Source: a virus
DNA length: 48,987 nt
Virus record (IMG/VR): IMGVR_UViG_3300023301_000018
Coordinates: 1-48,987 of that record
Direction: 5' to 3' (one strand)
Each line of letters starts with the position of its first letter. The first letter of the stretch is position 1. This document shows, one piece after another, positions 21,434 through 33,209 of the stretch. Both the position numbers and the translations under genes were made by a program. The notes below the pieces were generated by a model that did no database searches, was not told the origin of the DNA, and saw only the letters and a program-made list of their open reading frames with translations.

Positions 21434-21705
21434 AAAAACTGTTGATTGCGTTGATGTTGGTGTCTAGCGCCGTTCATGCAGAAGAGTGGCTGGAGTTACC
21501 AAACAATGCTGGAGGAAAGATTTTGCTATTGACGAGTAAGTGCAAGGGCAGCGACACAGGTCTGTTAGTAATTTCCACTATCCCAAAAGGAATTAATTTA
21601 CATGGCTGCTGGTATGCATTTGCCGACATGATCCACATCTCGTGGGATAGCGGCCAAGCTTCCAGCTTTGACCCAAATGAATTTACTTACCGTAAAAGTA
21701 AATGA
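21430..21705 (+). CDS. Predicted secreted small protein
   Basis: 91 residues with a classical signal peptide MKKLLIALMLVSSAVHA and probable cleavage before EEW. The mature part has two cysteines (TSKCKGSD, NLHGCWYA) that could form a disulfide in the periplasm. It overlaps both neighbours. Secretion suggests action on the host envelope, possibly superinfection exclusion; this is inference. Confidence 0.7.
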   Translation: MKKLLIALMLVSSAVHAEEWLELPNNAGGKILLLTSKCKGSDTGLLVISTIPKGINLHGCWYAFADMIHISWDSGQASSFDPNEFTYRKSK

Positions 21706-21929
21706 AAAAGATTGATCCATATTGGCGGGCTAAGGTAGACGCCACCCGTACAGGGGTAATGAAAACAATTAAATCTGTTCGTGCGGGCGAAGTAAACGAG
21801 GAAGATATAGATAAGCTACAAAACTTTTGTTTATTTGCATTGGCGCTGATGCAGGCAGAAGGCCCTAAGAAGTGGGAGTTAGCTAAACTTAATGCAGAAC
21901 TAATGTCTTTTATGAAGGAGGTGAAATGA
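21702..21929 (+). CDS. Unknown 75-residue early protein
   Basis: 75 residues starting MKKIDPYWRAKVDATRTG, then a helical acidic part (AGEVNEEDIDKLQNF). A truncated relative of its start occurs at 22145-22189 (MKKIYPYWGAK), so this gene has been partly duplicated. ATGA overlap with the previous gene. Function unknown. Confidence 0.6.
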   Translation: MKKIDPYWRAKVDATRTGVMKTIKSVRAGEVNEEDIDKLQNFCLFALALMQAEGPKKWELAKLNAELMSFMKEVK

Positions 21930-22079: not shown

Positions 22080-22156
22080 ACAGCCTGGCGATTGCTCGGA
22101 GGGCAATAAATGAACAACACACCTACAGAGCACTTTGAGCAGCGATGAAAAAGATA
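22080..22156 (+). repeat. 77-bp perfect direct repeat, copy 1 (copy 2 at 22885-22961)
   Basis: Identical to 22885-22961. It contains the last 11 codons of a cytosine methyltransferase gene, a 12-codon frame MNNTPTEHFEQR (22110-22148) and the overlapping start of an MKKI frame. Copy 1 keeps this 3' end without the rest of the gene, so it looks like a relic of a second methyltransferase copy or a recombination footprint. Confidence 0.95.
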
Positions 22157-22189
22157 TATCCGTACTGGGGGGCTAAATGTCCGTTTTAA
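22145..22189 (+). pseudogene. Truncated relic of an MKKI.PYW gene
   Basis: A 14-codon frame MKKIYPYWGAKCPF begins inside the repeat and resembles the start of the gene at 21702 (MKKIDPYWRAK) at both protein and DNA level. It stops at once after the homology. The methyltransferase start lies inside it. Confidence 0.5.
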
Positions 22190-22914
22190 TTGGGGAAAAG
22201 AATGAAATCAGAACAATGCACCTTTTCGCAGGTCACGGCGGTGGACTGCTTGCCGACATCATTCTTGGACACAAGCCAGTTGTTGCTGTTGAGTGGGAAC
22301 CCTACGCCTGCCAAGTCCTTAGAGAACGAGCAGCAGACGGATGGTTCCCCGGCCTGCGAGTGCACGAAGGGGACGTTAGCCTGTTTGACCCATCCGAGTA
22401 CACCGGCTTCGTGGACGTTATTCATGCAGGCTTCCCTTGCCAAGACGTTAGCGTTGCTGGAAAGCAGGCAGGTGTATCTGAGGGAACCCGATCAGGTCTT
22501 TACCGTGAAGTCCTGCGCATCGCTGGCGTGGTACGACCAAAGTTCTTGTTCTTGGAAAACGTATCAGCAATCCTTTCTAACGGATTGGAAACCGTACTCG
22601 GAGACTTGGCCGCGCTGGGGTATGACAGCCGGTGGTGCTGCATACGTGCATCCGATGTCGGGGCACCGCATCAGCGCGACAGGTGGTTTTTGTTGGCCGA
22701 CACCGACAGCGCACAATGCCAAGGAAACGAACGCACCGAGCGAGTCGAATCGGAACACGCCGACATTGGCGGCTCAAGTTGGTGGGAGTCTGAATCCGAC
22801 GTGGATCGAGTGGCTAATGGCGTTTCCAATCGGGTTCACCGTCTTAAAGGATTGGGTAACGCCCAGTGCCCGCTCCAAGCGGCAACAGCCTGGCGATTGC
22901 TCGGAGGGCAATAA
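22177..22914 (+). CDS. DNA cytosine-5 methyltransferase
   Basis: 245 residues; ATG at 22177 behind a GGGGGG site. Motif I HLFAGHGGGLLADIILG (15-31), motif IV GFPCQDVSVAGKQAG (85-99) with catalytic Cys88, motif VI ENVSA (127-131), motif VIII QRDRWFLL (166-173), and the terminal RVHRLKGLGNAQCPLQAA (motifs IX/X). The target-recognition region between VIII and IX is short (about 45 residues), so the enzyme is small for the family. It would methylate cytosine in phage DNA to evade host restriction. No restriction nuclease partner is seen. A second gene uses the same DNA in the next frame, and 77-bp repeats flank the locus. Confidence 0.88.
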   Translation: MSVLIGEKNEIRTMHLFAGHGGGLLADIILGHKPVVAVEWEPYACQVLRERAADGWFPGLRVHEGDVSLFDPSEYTGFVDVIHAGFPCQDVSVAGKQAGVSEGTRSGLYREVLRIAGVVRPKFLFLENVSAILSNGLETVLGDLAALGYDSRWCCIRASDVGAPHQRDRWFLLADTDSAQCQGNERTERVESEHADIGGSSWWESESDVDRVANGVSNRVHRLKGLGNAQCPLQAATAWRLLGGQ

Positions 22915-22918
22915 ATGA
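22202..22918 (+). CDS. Overprinted protein of the LNPxWxEWLM phage family
   Basis: 238 residues in the +1-shifted frame, lying wholly over the methyltransferase gene apart from four bases. The ATG at 22202 has its own GGGG site. It contains SLAKTLALLESRQVYLREP, SWKTYQQSFL, YSETWPRWGM, FCWPTPTAHNAKE and SLNPTWIEWLMAFPIGFT, motifs I recognise from stand-alone phage proteins (SETWPR.GM, WPTP, LNP.WVEWLMG.P.GWT). The function of that family is unknown to me. LAKT reads the codons of PCQD one base out of phase, so the family may descend from this overlap. Confidence 0.65.
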   Translation: MKSEQCTFSQVTAVDCLPTSFLDTSQLLLLSGNPTPAKSLENEQQTDGSPACECTKGTLACLTHPSTPASWTLFMQASLAKTLALLESRQVYLREPDQVFTVKSCASLAWYDQSSCSWKTYQQSFLTDWKPYSETWPRWGMTAGGAAYVHPMSGHRISATGGFCWPTPTAHNAKETNAPSESNRNTPTLAAQVGGSLNPTWIEWLMAFPIGFTVLKDWVTPSARSKRQQPGDCSEGNK

Positions 22919-22961
22919 ACAACACACCTACAGAGCACTTTGAGCAGCGATGAAAAAGATA
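22885..22961 (+). repeat. 77-bp perfect direct repeat, copy 2 (copy 1 at 22080-22156)
   Basis: Second copy, here continuous with the methyltransferase 3' end. It includes a 12-codon frame (22915-22953) overlapping the next ATG by ATGA, a possible translated leader for the gene at 22950. Confidence 0.95.
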
Positions 22962-26903: not shown

Positions 26904-27194
26904 ATGAAATCTATTAAGAAGTATATGAGTGAAGTAGCAAATGTGGGCTGCGTTCTTTGCCACCATCTTGATTACGGGCATACCCCTGCTGTTCTCCACC
27001 ACCCGCGTGATGCGGTTGGTGGAGCGCAGCGGGCCTCTGATTGGCTTGTAATACCTCTTTGCCCAGAACACCATGTCGGTAAGTCTGGGTACCACGGACT
27101 AGGTAGCAGAGGGTTTTATACACGGTATAAACTTTCAGAGTGGGATCTTATGGCTATGACTATAGAGCTACACCAGAAATCAATTTCTCATTGA
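26904..27194 (+). CDS. Ref/HNH-like nuclease
   Basis: 96 residues. VGCVLCHHLDYGHTPAVLHH, IPLCPEHHVG and YHGLGSRGFYTRYKLSEWDL match the Ref-type nuclease pattern (CxxC, a His pair, LCxxHH, then IHG......FE.RYG...DLL). In P1 Ref, RecA filaments guide DNA cutting by such an HNH-like fold. Here it ends the recombination module, so a recombination-linked endonuclease is likely. It meets the giant leftward gene head-on with a 15-base overlap. Confidence 0.65.
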   Translation: MKSIKKYMSEVANVGCVLCHHLDYGHTPAVLHHPRDAVGGAQRASDWLVIPLCPEHHVGKSGYHGLGSRGFYTRYKLSEWDLMAMTIELHQKSISH

Positions 27195-27197
27195 TTT
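27177..27197. terminator. AT-rich hairpin at convergent gene ends
   Basis: AAATCAAT and ATTGATTT form an 8-bp stem with a 5-base loop, spanning the stop codons of both convergent genes. On the plus strand it is followed by CCTTACTTCTTC, so not a perfect U-tract. A bidirectional terminator is plausible; the stem is AT-rich. Confidence 0.45.
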
Positions 27198-30100
27198 CCT
27201 TACTTCTTCTGCCTGTTGTGCCAATTGTGCAATCAGTTCTTTTAGACGATCAATTTCTTCTTTCTTCTGAGCGCCGCTCATAGTTTCGTCGTTGATAATC
27301 GCGCGTTGAACCTGGCGGATTCTAGACATGTCTTTTGATGTCTTGTCATAGAATTTAGCTAAGGCAATTTTGTCGCCCTTCTCTTCTAATATCGCCTGCA
27401 TCTTTTCCGACTCGCCAATTTCTGCGTAGTGGCGCATGTCGGAATAAGCTTGTTCAATAATTTTCATGTTTTCGTAGAAGCTTGTAACGTAAGAAGACTG
27501 TGTAGCCGGCAGAGACTTTACAAAGCCTAACGATACGGTGTCAGTCCAATCCTTATCTGGATACGCACTCTTGGAGAACGGCATCATAGCGTAATGCGAT
27601 GTCGCTGCAATTGTTGCGCCCATCCAGCCAAGGTATGCCTTGATTGCATAGTCTGTTTGGACAGGAGATATTTCCGTAGCCTCCGGTAAGAATACATTAC
27701 TAACCTGGCTTAATAACTTTGCTAGCGGGCTAGTGTTTGTAGCTACACGCTCCCCTTTAGACAAGCGTTCCATACCAGCAGTCTCAATAGGTGAGCCTGT
27801 AAAACTATCTTTATTAGAGTACAGATCTATCAGTGGTTTAAACATCTGTGGCGTAGGGTTCATGGCAAAGGTATCTGTGAGCATACGTTTCATACTCTGT
27901 CCGAACACTTTACCTTCTGCGCCCTCGTCAAACATCTGCTCCGCCAAGCGCTCGGCTAGCGTACCAAATGCACCAATCTCAAACGGTTTTGGAATACGGA
28001 TAGCCGCCTCCATACCAGGCAATCTAAACCACCAGAAATTGTCACGATCCCATTGCTCGCGCTTTTTAAACTCTTCATCATCTTTGAACGCCATGTACAG
28101 CATCAAGGAGGCCAAGACCGTCGCGCTAGTAACAATGGAAAACTGCTGGGCTTTCTGTTTGTCTGTGGCTTCTATAGGTTTACCTGTTACGGAGTTATAA
28201 ATCACCCGGCCAGTCGGCATAATACCGTCGCGGCCAAGCTTGTATAAGCCCTGTATACGTGCGTTCAAGAATGGGACTACCTGCGTTACAACCCGTAGCG
28301 CCGGCCAAGAACCTTGCATAGAGAAGTCCAGCAAATCCCTGGCGTAAAAAGATGCCTCAAGATGGCTAAAGTTTTTGCCGGTCTCTGGGTTAATCTTGTT
28401 TTTTAATTGCTGATACAACGACATACGGTTAGCGGATTCAGACTTATTGCCAAGATCTTGATAAGCCTTCCATGCCCCAGCTAAGCCAGATTTAATCTTT
28501 CCTTCTGTGGTGAGGATAGTTGATGCATCCACACCAGCATCAATCAATCTCCTTACTAACCTTGCTTGGTCTCCCTCAAAAGCAGTTCCAAAATTAAAAA
28601 TAGCACCGCCAGCAAGAGCGGAAATGTACTCAGGATTATTTTTGTTACTCGCTTGTAAACCTTGAGAAACATTTTTTGCAATGTTCAAGCCGATTCCAGA
28701 CACGGCGGCAGATTGCACGCTGTCTCGAACAAGGTTGCGTACTTTAAACGCAGGAGATGACGTTACGCCAAACTGTAAAATGTTCTTAAAGTCACGGGCT
28801 ATATCCAGAAATTTAGACTTTGGCCCCATGTAACCAATAGACATAATTGATTCTAAGAGTAGCGGGTCTACTATCTCAAAGTAAGCAGGGAAGCCCTTGT
28901 ACATTACCTTTACAAGACCCTTTCCCTCTGCGGAAAAAATTCCTGGCCGAAGCTCGCCATCAGCGTAAGTAACGCCATCAATTTCCGTGCCACCCAATAG
29001 CTTCTCGTTGACATAAACTTTACCATCTTGGAATTCATAGTTGGATTTAAGGCTAGGGAACGCAGCACCAATGTCTGTTGCTGCCATAACAGTCTCTACT
29101 GCTGCATCATTTTTCATGGATGAAGACAGGATATGATTCCAGTTACGCAACAAGTTTTCCATCAAATCGCCAAAAGGTTTCTCGCCGCCTTTTAATTGCT
29201 TGGAAAAATATTTGTTAGCAAGACCAGAGGACGTACGAATGTCAGCTACCTCACCCTCTTCAACCATCTTATAAAAAGGAATGTAGTAAACATCTTTTAA
29301 GAACGTGTCGTAACCCGCCTTATCAATCAATCCTTTTTGAAGGGCAACATCCAAAACAGATCTATTTAGTCTGTTAAGTTCCTTCCTAACTTTTTCATAC
29401 ACTACTAACCGGCTTTCGTTACCAATTTTTCCTTCTGCTAGTTTATTGCGGTCACTTACAATATCCTTGTTGATAGAAGCTATCCGTCCTTTTTCAACCA
29501 GCGTAGCATCTCGGTTTAGGGCCAGCCAAATTAGAAAACTATTTACCTCGCCACCTATTGGGCCAAGTGCCTCAGTTAAACCTTTGGTGCCTTGTTTAAT
29601 ATCCAGCGCCCCGTCAGTTAGCTTTACCTCACCGTCGAAGAGAAGCCCCTCCAGTGCGCCGTCTACAGTCTTAGATAGCCGAGCCTTCATATAGGCAAGC
29701 GGGCTAATGTCCTTGATAGTCCTGTACTGGTCTGCAATACCTTGTGCAAGGCGCTGGAAGGTACGGTCCTTATACTTGTCCATCTTGTCTGAAAAGGTCT
29801 TACCCTCTGGCGAAAAGATAGGCTCAAGTCTTTTTAGGAACTCAGGATCAACGTGCTGGAATCCTTGTGATGGATCTATGCCACCCTTTTTCGTGGCTTT
29901 CTCTACACCCTTACGGATGAACTCCGGTATCTCCATTTCAGATTCAACGCCCCCCTCAGACGGGGATGTTTTACTCTGCTGCCCAGTTCTTGTACCTAAG
30001 AATGTTCCGCCTCTTTCCGTTAGCGCAGCAATATCAACAGCGGCATCACTCAGAATGTCTTCTGAAATAGCGGCAACCTGCTCTAAAGCGGTTTGATATT

Positions 30101-33100
30101 TAGGGTCAAGATTAAGTAGCTTACGCAGTACATCAACAAATTGTGTAAATGCACTTTGCTTTTTAGGCAAACGAATCTGAGAGATATAGTTTTGATAGTC
30201 TGGGTCAGTTAGACCCCACGTTATGATCTCATCTATATCTTTCATCGGTCCAAATTTTGTCCACGATCCTGGCATAGCTTCTTTTGCACGCATCATCATT
30301 TTAATGAATGGATGATCTTTGCCTGCCGCAACATCAACTTTAATTTGATCGTTAATCGTCTCAAGAAGTTTGGTTAAGTCTTTAATCTCATAAGAATTTT
30401 TTGGCAAAAACTGTAACTGCGTTTGGGTACTAACATGCAACAATTCATGTATGATTGTTTCGTAAGTTGTCCCAGTTTTTCTATCCGAAATTCCTTGTGC
30501 GCCAGTACCGTTCAGAAAAACTTTAAACGAAACCCCTTGTGGCCCCCAAGACATTGCGGATTTACCAGTGGTGCTGTTGCTACGGTTTGCGCCATTAAGT
30601 ATTCTCATTGTCATAGGAACGCCGCGCTTATCAAACTCATTGATCCGCACTAGCATCTTCTCAGCAATAGCTTTGGCCACACTGTTAGGGGCGTTATCTA
30701 CTAGCCACTGAGTTAATTTAGGCAAAGACATGCCTTTAATCTCTTTGGCAATAACCGCAGGATCTTTATCTATTACAAATTCAACACGCTCTGGCTTTTC
30801 TTTTGGCTGCTCTGACTGTACCTCTTCTTCTACAACAGGGGCAACAGTAGTAGGCTCCCCGCGTAGAGTTTGGAATATCTCTTCTATCGGGCGACTGATT
30901 GGCTCATTGCCAAACATATCGGTACCAACCTGGGTTTGCTCGTATGCCTTTTGCGCTTCTACAGCTAAGTTAGTGAGCGCGTCACCTATACGACGAGGCG
31001 CGTTCCTGTTGTTAGCGAACATACTAACTACTTCCTGCGTCAAGGGATCCATCTCAATATCACCCTGACTCGCATAGGTAGCTAGATCAACGCCTTGTCT
31101 ACGAGCGTTCACCGCTAACTCGGCAGCTTTAGACACGAATTGGCGAATGTCATACTCTCCTGTACCAGAAAGATTAGACATAGCCGGTGCAGCAATAGAC
31201 ATCCCACGAAGAATCTGCTGAGCTTCTGGATCTGTAGCTTCGGCGTATAGGTCAATTAGCCCATCGTTTTCATATGCACGAGCAAATAGCGCGTTTGCCA
31301 GACGGATCTTGGATAACGGATTAGGCTGACCCTGCTTGTTCATTAACTGCGCTTGCTCTTCTTTCGGCATCGCAGCAAGGAAATTGCGTAGGGATCTTGG
31401 GCTAGGAGAGCCGTCTGCTAGGAACTCTATCCCTTGCAGATCAAACCGCCCCATATCAATCTTTGCTTGTTCTGTCGGCGACATGCCAAGCTGCCCGCCA
31501 ACATTACCCTTGTCGGCAATATCAGGAGTAAGGGATGACTTAGGCATAATCCGAACCAACACCGGCCGATCAAAATCTTTGATTGCTTCTGAATTAATCC
31601 CGTGCGAAGGATCGTTAATTAGGTTTTGTGTGTAATCCGTATTCGTACCATTTTCATACGCTCTATTTAGTCCCGCCACCCGCCCGTTACCAGCCACTGG
31701 GCGCACGCCTTGGAATGTAGGGTCTGAATACTCAGGAATAGCGGTGCCATCAGCCAGGTTGCTAGGCGTAATAGCTTTAACATCTATTACTGCATATTGG
31801 ATAGGTATCTTAGTACCGTCTGAGGCAGACACCATATCAATACGACCTAGATACTTAGGATTAAATTCAACATCACTGATGACTACCGGAGCGCCCGCGC
31901 CAAAATCTTTAGACTCAGACAGGCGATTGTAATCAGGCTCTGCCGCAATGCTAGTCATTTGCTGAATAGACGCTGGCTTAGAGCGGTCACGATTTTGAAT
32001 GTCTGCGAACGACATCCCAAAGTCTTCCGGCGTACCTTCCCAGTACGTACTCATAGCCTGCACAGCTTCTTCCGGTGGTGCGGAAAATGATGGGCTTACT
32101 AATTTAATCGGTTCTTCTGGAGTAGTAGGCTCTACTTCCACAGGAGGAACAGCGCCATCAATGAGCAAGTCTGGCTCTGGCTCTGGGCTAGGCGCAAACT
32201 GTGATGATGGTTGCTTACCCTCTATCGGTGTAACTTCACCCCTATTTTGCCTTTGTAGTAGGCCAGCAGCGCCACCTAAACTACCGCCGCCGATAGCAGC
32301 CATAGCAGCAGTCTCACCTAATCCCTTAGTTAAGGATGTTTCTGGTACAACCTGTTGTAACGCTAGATTCTGGGCAAACTTAGCTGGCGTTTCCTCAACG
32401 CCCTCACTAATACTCTCTCCTATAGCGCCACGAGCACCGCCAATAAGTCTACCTAAGCTACCAGTCTTACCGGCAAAGGCTTCTTCTATAACTCTTGCGC
32501 CCGGCAGTCTCTGTGCGAGTAAAGAAATTACCGCAGCACTAGCACCCGTAGCACGAGCGTAACCGATAGCCTGACCAGCAGCTTCTGGCTCAAGCATCCC
32601 TTTATCTACTAATGCTTTATATATATCTGTATAAGTACCTGCGCCAATATCAGCGCCCTGCTGTACAGCGCCTGCGCCCACCGCAGAACTAACAGCGCCA
32701 GATACCCCTAACAATGGTTTGGCAATTCTAGCTGCGCCAAAAGGTACAAGTAGCTGCGGTGCTTGTTCTGCAAGGAAGTTAGTTATTAGCGCTGGGTCTC
32801 TTATAGTTTCAGAGAACGCAGCAGCAAACGCACTAAACTGACCAGACTTCTCCGCCTCAGAAACTTTTTCAGCGCGGGCTTTCTCACGGGCTAATAGGCC
32901 CGGAGATTTCATAGCCGTCGCTTCTGTTTGCATCTCCTTACCAATAGATGTAAGGCCGGTTTCCTCCCCCGGCTTTTCAAAGTTCCCAGTAATAAGATTA
33001 GATACTTGTCCAGGAAATTGTAAAAGCGAACCTGCTCCTGATTTTAACCCCGCACCAATGTCCGTAAATGCCTCACCCATCGTACGGTCTGTTGGCTTTT

Positions 33101-33209
33101 TATTGATGGATGGCAGGATTTCATTTTCAATAGCATTAACAATTGCATCCTGCGACATCGTATCTGGGAAGTCAATAAGGCCAACTCCAGGAACATTTAC
33201 TCTAGGCAT
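27180..33209 (-). CDS. Giant polyvalent ejection-type protein
   Basis: 2009 residues. An Ala/Gly-rich N-terminal third has hydrophobic segments (QGADIGAGTYTDIYKALV region). Residues about 436-553 look like the DdrB/ParB-type domain of polyvalent proteins (GTAIPEYSDPTFQGVRPV, AGNGRVAGLNRAY). A zinc protease motif HELLH lies at about 921-925. The C-terminal part (ITSSPAFKVRNLVRD-like region, then SHLEASFYARDLLDFSMQG) resembles the LPD38 associated domain. Such proteins are packaged and injected with phage DNA to act in the host. Domains are recognised from motifs only. It is the last gene of the leftward run if the genome is permuted. Confidence 0.75.
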   Translation of the reverse strand: MPRVNVPGVGLIDFPDTMSQDAIVNAIENEILPSINKKPTDRTMGEAFTDIGAGLKSGAGSLLQFPGQVSNLITGNFEKPGEETGLTSIGKEMQTEATAMKSPGLLAREKARAEKVSEAEKSGQFSAFAAAFSETIRDPALITNFLAEQAPQLLVPFGAARIAKPLLGVSGAVSSAVGAGAVQQGADIGAGTYTDIYKALVDKGMLEPEAAGQAIGYARATGASAAVISLLAQRLPGARVIEEAFAGKTGSLGRLIGGARGAIGESISEGVEETPAKFAQNLALQQVVPETSLTKGLGETAAMAAIGGGSLGGAAGLLQRQNRGEVTPIEGKQPSSQFAPSPEPEPDLLIDGAVPPVEVEPTTPEEPIKLVSPSFSAPPEEAVQAMSTYWEGTPEDFGMSFADIQNRDRSKPASIQQMTSIAAEPDYNRLSESKDFGAGAPVVISDVEFNPKYLGRIDMVSASDGTKIPIQYAVIDVKAITPSNLADGTAIPEYSDPTFQGVRPVAGNGRVAGLNRAYENGTNTDYTQNLINDPSHGINSEAIKDFDRPVLVRIMPKSSLTPDIADKGNVGGQLGMSPTEQAKIDMGRFDLQGIEFLADGSPSPRSLRNFLAAMPKEEQAQLMNKQGQPNPLSKIRLANALFARAYENDGLIDLYAEATDPEAQQILRGMSIAAPAMSNLSGTGEYDIRQFVSKAAELAVNARRQGVDLATYASQGDIEMDPLTQEVVSMFANNRNAPRRIGDALTNLAVEAQKAYEQTQVGTDMFGNEPISRPIEEIFQTLRGEPTTVAPVVEEEVQSEQPKEKPERVEFVIDKDPAVIAKEIKGMSLPKLTQWLVDNAPNSVAKAIAEKMLVRINEFDKRGVPMTMRILNGANRSNSTTGKSAMSWGPQGVSFKVFLNGTGAQGISDRKTGTTYETIIHELLHVSTQTQLQFLPKNSYEIKDLTKLLETINDQIKVDVAAGKDHPFIKMMMRAKEAMPGSWTKFGPMKDIDEIITWGLTDPDYQNYISQIRLPKKQSAFTQFVDVLRKLLNLDPKYQTALEQVAAISEDILSDAAVDIAALTERGGTFLGTRTGQQSKTSPSEGGVESEMEIPEFIRKGVEKATKKGGIDPSQGFQHVDPEFLKRLEPIFSPEGKTFSDKMDKYKDRTFQRLAQGIADQYRTIKDISPLAYMKARLSKTVDGALEGLLFDGEVKLTDGALDIKQGTKGLTEALGPIGGEVNSFLIWLALNRDATLVEKGRIASINKDIVSDRNKLAEGKIGNESRLVVYEKVRKELNRLNRSVLDVALQKGLIDKAGYDTFLKDVYYIPFYKMVEEGEVADIRTSSGLANKYFSKQLKGGEKPFGDLMENLLRNWNHILSSSMKNDAAVETVMAATDIGAAFPSLKSNYEFQDGKVYVNEKLLGGTEIDGVTYADGELRPGIFSAEGKGLVKVMYKGFPAYFEIVDPLLLESIMSIGYMGPKSKFLDIARDFKNILQFGVTSSPAFKVRNLVRDSVQSAAVSGIGLNIAKNVSQGLQASNKNNPEYISALAGGAIFNFGTAFEGDQARLVRRLIDAGVDASTILTTEGKIKSGLAGAWKAYQDLGNKSESANRMSLYQQLKNKINPETGKNFSHLEASFYARDLLDFSMQGSWPALRVVTQVVPFLNARIQGLYKLGRDGIMPTGRVIYNSVTGKPIEATDKQKAQQFSIVTSATVLASLMLYMAFKDDEEFKKREQWDRDNFWWFRLPGMEAAIRIPKPFEIGAFGTLAERLAEQMFDEGAEGKVFGQSMKRMLTDTFAMNPTPQMFKPLIDLYSNKDSFTGSPIETAGMERLSKGERVATNTSPLAKLLSQVSNVFLPEATEISPVQTDYAIKAYLGWMGATIAATSHYAMMPFSKSAYPDKDWTDTVSLGFVKSLPATQSSYVTSFYENMKIIEQAYSDMRHYAEIGESEKMQAILEEKGDKIALAKFYDKTSKDMSRIRQVQRAIINDETMSGAQKKEEIDRLKELIAQLAQQAEEVRKSMRN

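Follow-up and report, generated by a model that had tools for sequence, protein, structure and literature searches.

The window analyzed here is a stretch of 48,987 nucleotides, positions 1 to 48,987 of the IMG/VR virus record IMGVR_UViG_3300023301_000018. The list of open reading frames (ORFs) and the translation of the window place two long ORFs on the same strand of one 740-base gene (Table 1). One of these runs from an ATG to a TAA stop codon and encodes a cytosine-C5 DNA methyltransferase (C5-MTase) of 245 aa; the other, in the +1 frame relative to the first, starts at its own ATG and encodes a protein of 238 aa that we denote F2. Both ORFs were found, open and overlapping by ~713 nt, at the positions given in the first-pass annotation of this DNA. 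The suggestion made there that F2 possesses its own ATG and a purine-rich site also holds, with GGGGAAAAGA directly preceding position 22202. In profile searches, the MTase frame matches PF00145 (3.4e-34) and phrog_363 (1.8e-59), with HhaI as the nearest solved relative; it contains motifs I, IV (PCQ), VI (ENV), VIII and IX in this order, motif IX being read as RLKGLGNAQ, and the ATG at 22216 may be an alternative to the start at 22177. F2 of the window matches phrog_1008, described as 'DNA methyltransferase' (4.5e-18), a profile that is matched by 51 of the 52 aligned F2 proteins; Pfam yielded no match for the window F2 or for any of these 52 proteins.

Table 1. Coordinates of the features of the MTase/F2 locus in the window.
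Feature	Position	Strand	Evidence
Direct repeat, 81 nt, upstream copy, 99% identical; holds the last MTase codons	22076..22156	+	
Catalytic C5-MTase frame, motifs I-VIII and IX-X, no recognizable target-recognition domain	22177..22914	+	PF00145, phrog_363, omega
Purine-rich possible ribosome-binding site of F2, GGGGAAAAGA	22191..22201	+	Sequence
F2, +1-frame protein, proposed target-recognition subunit	22202..22918	+	phrog_1008, +1 position at all loci, omega
MTase motif I (FAGHGG)	22225..22242	+	Sequence; conserved in alignment A4
F2 CxCx6CxxH motif, residues 52-64	22355..22393	+	Pattern C.C...C..H
MTase motif IV (PCQ, catalytic Cys)	22435..22443	+	P and C invariant in A4
MTase motif VI (ENV)	22555..22563	+	E127 invariant in A4
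F2 SETWPRWGM motif	22598..22624	+	Conserved block, alignment A1; also in +1 of actinophage MTases
MTase motif VIII (APHQRDR)	22663..22683	+	H165, R167, R169 invariant in A4
F2 PTPTAHNAKETNAPSESNRNTPTLAAQV module, proposed to be a specificity cassette; poorly conserved linker in the MTase frame	22697..22780	+	Module identity, spacer omega, cassette exchange
F2 LNPTWIEWLMAFPIGFT, segment preceding motif IX in single-chain relatives	22790..22840	+	Profile match, spacing
MTase motif IX (RVHRLKGLGNAQ), nucleotides in common with the F2 FPIGFT tail	22831..22866	+	R219, N228 invariant in A4
Direct repeat, 81 nt, downstream copy; includes the 3' end of both frames	22881..22961	+	

The locus is situated upstream of genes for a PD-(D/E)XK nuclease (23304) and an ERF recombinase (24198), that is, in an early/recombination region, and no restriction partner was apparent among the ten flanking ORFs scanned. 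The 81-nt direct repeat that flanks the MTase/F2 gene points to recombination or duplication at this locus, assembly being a less likely cause. A further repeat of 32 nt (84%) connects positions 21702-21733 and 22145-22176 of the window, so that the MTase start is immediately preceded by a further copy of the start of the small gene located at 21702 (ATGAAAAAGAT...GGGCTAA), which suggests that the leader was assembled from neighboring genes. Elsewhere in the window, the minus strand of 27180-33209 contains a 2009-codon ORF that possibly encodes a very large virion or tail protein. In two phages, another gene annotated as a methylase adjoins the overlapping C5-MTase, namely, an adenine methylase in Salmonella phage S9-5 (L003, 895-1488) and an N4/N6 MTase in Sulfitobacter phage phiGT1 (L328, from 1666).

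The F2 motif LNPTWIEWLM...FP results from reading the conserved MTase block DVDRVANGVSNRVHRLKGLGNA (motif IX) in the +1 frame; because this motif is accordingly not independent of the MTase coding, a dedicated test for selection is required. A shuffle test of alignment columns was set aside as proof given that the control frame (+2) also scored above the null through shared ancestry. The test we used relies on changes whose effect in one frame is independent of the other: omega of F2 was obtained from changes at MTase first positions that are nonsynonymous in the MTase, split by their effect on F2, and omega of the MTase from changes at MTase third positions, split by whether they alter the MTase. 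With transversions only, in 41 disjoint pairs, omega is 0.117 [0.074-0.166] for F2, 0.084 [0.055-0.117] for the MTase and 1.04 for the control frame. In the sample fetched with the MTase only (64 loci, 20 pairs), the respective values are 0.196 [0.131-0.307], 0.065 [0.034-0.111] and 1.16, the latter with a wide interval. Furthermore, new stops in F2 are strongly suppressed (3 at 1407 sites). The alignment of homologs with an overlapping-frame substitution test that had been proposed for this locus thus yields omega of 0.12-0.20 for F2 and 0.07-0.08 for the MTase against ~1 for the control; both F2 and the MTase evolve under purifying selection, and it is close to certain that both are genes.

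All 88 viral loci fetched with F2 queries (8 annotated phages, 79 IMG/VR loci and the window) encode F2 in the +1 frame of a C5-MTase ORF, and the same was observed at 80 of 80 loci in a genome-wide scan with F2. Whether the LNPxWxEWLM family generally overlaps MTase genes, a question posed in the first-pass annotation, can thus be answered in the affirmative; its description of the F2 motifs as typical of separate phage proteins is not supported, given that a stand-alone F2 lacking an overlapping MTase was found at none of these viral or genome loci. The records identified in the genome scan include Pseudomonadota, Actinomycetota, Planctomycetota, Verrucomicrobiota, Synergistota, Bacillota and one archaeal MAG, and the pair is also present on plasmids of Leptospira, Acinetobacter and Nostoc as well as on a large Shinella replicon. 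In one class-level sample, an F2 match was detected in 12 of 369 genomes (~3%, the center genome counted). Across 137 distinct MTase loci (those found with F2 together with those found by the MTase only), the open part of the +1 frame averages 94% of the MTase, compared to 43% after synonymous codon shuffling (p <= 0.01 in 85% of the loci), and the +2 frame and the three antisense frames are at the shuffle null. For the window MTase, the open run in +1 is 240 codons versus a mean of 101 in synonymous shuffles (p = 0.010). Canonical C5-MTases encoded in the same genomes (n = 20) lack F2, and their +1 frame is open over 25% on average, the level expected by chance; the restriction-modification MTase that adjoins NgoMIV lacks F2 as well. 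In the phylogenetic tree, where the 'B' label is noisy and only the split between MTases with and without F2 was used, the MTases that carry F2 group together in a single clade (support 99/97) separated from a small, distant neighbor group; nested within this clade, the actinophage forms constitute one of their own (96/97).

The claim of two conserved families in overlapping frames stands, with F2 homologs retained across phages, plasmids and genomes, and no relative was found with an intact MTase of the same type and a disrupted F2. One F2 match in a genome (L345) turned out to be a canonical MTase that never had F2. In L124/L125 (F2 at ~25-712 nt from the MTase start), both proteins are altered at once by a single frameshift within the region of the PTP modules, which moves the segment that precedes motif IX (hereinafter pre-IX) into the MTase frame and removes motif IX from it. 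In another locus (L347, genome handle G355, 486-1271), the MTase frame contains an in-frame stop after motif VI and F2 is open; this copy may be decaying, or the stop may reflect a sequencing error or a natural split.

The starts of the MTase and F2 form the sequence NTGAATG, with the two 4 nt apart, in 41 of the 137 loci, and in 103 of the 137 the F2 ATG lies between -25 and +45 nt relative to the MTase start that was chosen. Among 12 distinct phage records, the annotated coding sequence corresponds to F2 in 4 cases and to the MTase in 8, and none of the 12 annotates both frames over the full overlap.

The target-recognition domain of C5-MTases normally sits between motifs VIII and IX. In the MTase chain of the present family, no such domain is recognizable: the family profile aligns only with HhaI residues 15-176, none of which belong to the HhaI recognition domain; in the window, ~40 residues separate the end of the PF00145 match from motif IX; and the median VIII-IX spacer is 107 aa in the F2 family versus 158 aa in canonical enzymes. 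The two frames divide the gene accordingly in their substitution patterns. In the sample fetched with the MTase only, which is unbiased and from which these rates were taken, changes silent in the MTase and not in F2 drop from 0.062 per site in motifs I-VIII to 0.0054 in the VIII-IX spacer, and those silent in F2 and not in the MTase rise from 0.009 to 0.056. Omega in the spacer is 0.079 for F2 and 0.168 for the MTase, and F2 is under weaker constraint over motifs I-VIII (0.37). With F2 constrained and the MTase relaxed in this region, the VIII-IX spacer is held by F2 and is nearly free in the MTase frame.

F2 consists of a variable N-terminal part, a SWKT...SETWPxWGM core, at least one PTPxA module and the pre-IX segment LNPxWVEWLMGFPxGWT. 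The pattern C.C...C..H is present in 53 of 166 F2 sequences, all from one subfamily, and CxCx6CxxH is a possible metal site. In loci of the window type, the parts of the enzyme are divided over two ORFs, with the modules and pre-IX in F2 and motifs I-VIII and IX-X in the MTase frame; pre-IX in +1 and motif IX in the catalytic frame are a constant 53 nt apart in the loci displayed. The methylases of actinophages (Lton gp60, Wachhund gp69, Bartimeaus gp79/gp78) have a related catalytic domain, PTPxA modules and the segment LNxxFxEWMMGxPxGWVT, and likewise carry the N-terminal part of F2 in +1, but differ from the window in that pre-IX and motif IX share one frame, either that of the MTase or that of the second ORF. 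In the single-chain enzymes Lton gp60, Wachhund gp69 and Spartoi gp40, the modules, pre-IX and motif IX are all in the catalytic ORF. The F2 HMM matches inside such single-chain ORFs (L168, 1.6e-5; L169, 1.3e-6; L175, 1e-5) over the modules and the pre-IX segment, and comparison of the F2 profile with single-chain MTases gave a probability of 84.7 (E = 6.7e-6) over 22 pre-IX columns. In split loci (L167, L170, L173 and L199; for example, Bartimeaus gp79/gp78, Renna12 and Winget), the catalytic ORF ends after motif VIII, and the +1 ORF contributes the modules, pre-IX and motif IX. Still other actinophage enzymes have pre-IX and motif IX in the MTase frame, with the F2 modules remaining in +1. 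Because the placement of pre-IX and motif IX differs among the actinophage enzymes, the border between the frames is not fixed; an initial assignment of architectures by regular expression left 87 loci unresolved. In the actinophage-type MTase ORFs L186-L193, a linker predicted to be disordered (pLDDT ~30 in L190) lies opposite the +1 PTP modules; going by this prediction, these also look like overlapping pairs even though pre-IX and motif IX are in the MTase frame.

The relationship between the C-terminal half of F2 and the recognition region of actinophage MTases speaks against the initial description of two unrelated families. An hhalign comparison of F2 with canonical C5-MTases produced no match; the homology of F2 to recognition domains therefore rests on the actinophage enzymes, and the likeness of LNPxWVEWLMGFP to the canonical LTPRECARLMGFP segment is a lead only. 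Searches of Pfam, PADLOC and the PDB identified no relative of F2. AlphaFold2 models of F2 alone (pLDDT 60, pTM 0.30) and of a single-chain relative (pLDDT 48) were both too poor for structural claims and were discarded as evidence on the fold. A Foldseek search returned nothing from the PDB and only weak phage methyltransferase matches from BFVD.

The modules are swapped like specificity cassettes. In 15 pairs of loci, the N block is at least 88% and the C block at least 80% identical in DNA, and the middles are mostly unalignable or contain a large insertion. For instance, L246 and L247 from two Pseudomonas genomes have flanks that are 92% and 96.5% identical around unalignable middles of 300 and 183 nt consisting of different PTP modules. 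The window module (PTPTAHNAKETNAPSE..RNTPTLAA) occurs on 8 distinct backbones (two of them fragments) that average 30% identity; over the same codons, the module shows 84% identity in the F2 frame versus 35% in the MTase frame, the former value being inflated because AHNAKETN was among the search patterns and the sample is biased toward the window module.

Several known systems share some of these features. The C5-MTases of the Bacillus phages SPR, phi3T and rho11s are reportedly multispecific, with several target-recognition domains; the resemblance lies in the tandem, exchangeable recognition modules of a phage C5-MTase, and the modules of those enzymes are part of the catalytic chain whereas here they are encoded in an overlapping frame. 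The small gene of M.EcoHK31I is said to be nested in another frame within the large gene, and the two ORFs of M.AquI reportedly overlap. M.EcoHK31I (YGGCCR) is a C5-MTase of two polypeptides, both of which are needed, with motifs I-VIII, X and the recognition domain in the large subunit and only motif IX in the small one, and M.AquI (CYCGRG) consists of alpha and beta subunits (PMC3404938). The pair described here resembles M.EcoHK31I as a C5-MTase that, under our proposal, comprises two polypeptides, but is set apart from the strict M.EcoHK31I type by the reported division of motifs, with motif IX in the MTase frame and the recognition modules in F2. In M.AquI, the catalytic part, on the one hand, and part of the recognition region with motif IX, on the other hand, are in separate chains, an arrangement that the split actinophage loci L167, L170 and L173 resemble; the strict M.AquI type, with motifs IX-X in the second polypeptide, describes the split actinophage group but not the window, where motifs IX-X stay in the catalytic frame and almost all of the catalytic gene is overlapped by the second ORF. 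Because the reported motif divisions differ in both cases, we assign the pair to neither type. The out-of-frame HNH element of ShiLan (PMC11855218) is likewise a case in which the gene of a related phage methylase harbors a second protein in another frame; as portrayed there, it is an inserted homing endonuclease in the third frame, in contrast to F2, which is native to the gene and in +1. No mention of F2 was found in the passages of that article considered here. Split C5-MTases are known (M.AquI, M.EcoHK31I), but a layout that leaves motif IX to the catalytic frame and assigns the recognition domain to the other, as well as the breadth of its distribution, appear to be undescribed; no report matching the overlapping pair was found in the open-access literature, although priority is not certain.

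Considering that no stand-alone F2 was found and that its C-terminal half is related to the actinophage recognition region, we regard the MTase and F2 as probable parts of one enzyme. The pair is likely to be a two-subunit C5-MTase in which the specificity subunit, F2, is overprinted on the catalytic subunit, and the sequence comparisons make it likely, too, that F2 is the recognition subunit. Frame 1 would then encode a catalytic subunit responsible for SAM binding and catalysis (motifs I-VIII) that retains motifs IX-X and almost no recognition domain. Frame 2 would encode F2, with an accessory N-terminal part over motifs I-VI, the PTPxA... modules and the LNPxWVEWLMGFPxGWT segment that would normally lead into motif IX. 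Both proteins would be produced from neighboring starts on one mRNA, and the subunits can be predicted to assemble such that F2 takes the place of the recognition domain that the catalytic chain lacks and determines the sequence to be methylated; for the phage, the main use of this methylation would be evasion of restriction by the host. The proposal in the first-pass annotation that the second frame arose by overprinting of a methyltransferase fits the stretch of F2 over motifs I-VIII; for the recognition part, it is no more likely than the relocation of a piece of the MTase to the other frame. We also lean toward a broader reading, under which these genes constitute a C5-MTase lineage with an exchangeable specificity subunit encoded wholly in the +1 frame, where the cassettes, constrained in F2 and a linker in the MTase frame, would give rise to new specificities by swapping.

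Some of the observations could be accommodated if F2 were a genuine overlapping gene that is not an MTase subunit and hitch-hikes with a job of its own, in anti-restriction, anti-defense or regulation: F2 extends over almost the entire gene from a start of its own, one subfamily has the CxC..C..H motif, and no relatives are found in Pfam, PADLOC or the PDB. This is unlikely in our estimate, and it leaves unexplained why the recognition domain is missing from the MTase at precisely the place of strongest constraint on F2, why the modules and pre-IX are in the MTase frame of the single-chain relatives, and why cassettes are exchanged. The conservation of F2 upstream of any possible shift site (codons 41-150, omega 0.13-0.19) is difficult to reconcile with a programmed +1 frameshift after motif VIII that would produce a single chain with a recognition domain, as is the separate start of F2, often within NTGAATG; moreover, motif IX would be missing from the frameshifted product in loci of the window type. 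Such a shift would have the right direction and, in the split actinophage loci, would join motifs I-VIII to the recognition domain and motif IX, but we consider this mechanism highly improbable. Finally, F2 might be a ghost frame, open and conserved only through conservation of the MTase, an idea to which the origin of LNPxWVEWLMGFP as the +1 reading of the conserved motif IX, and the above-null score of the frame+2 translation (shared ancestry), could lend some credence. Against it stand the values of omega for F2 and the control from the ancestry-independent tests, the suppression of new stops in F2 and the lack of such an open frame in canonical MTases; this explanation retains almost no probability and, within the assumptions of the tests, is already refuted.

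Provided that F2 acts as the specificity subunit, the annotation of many short phage and prophage 'DNA cytosine methyltransferases' covers only half an enzyme, and recoding the annotated gene before expression would destroy the overlapping partner. To our knowledge, same-strand overlaps of >200 codons in prokaryotes with purifying selection measured in both frames have rarely been established; the present one is found again at hundreds of loci, and the roles of the two frames are clearly divided along the gene. Should the reading as a lineage with exchangeable specificity hold, phages, prophages and plasmids of many phyla, as well as one archaeal MAG, would carry a modular, evolvable overlapping pair that is mostly recorded as a single gene. 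The pair allows a direct test of how exchangeable recognition modules evolve on bases that also encode another protein.
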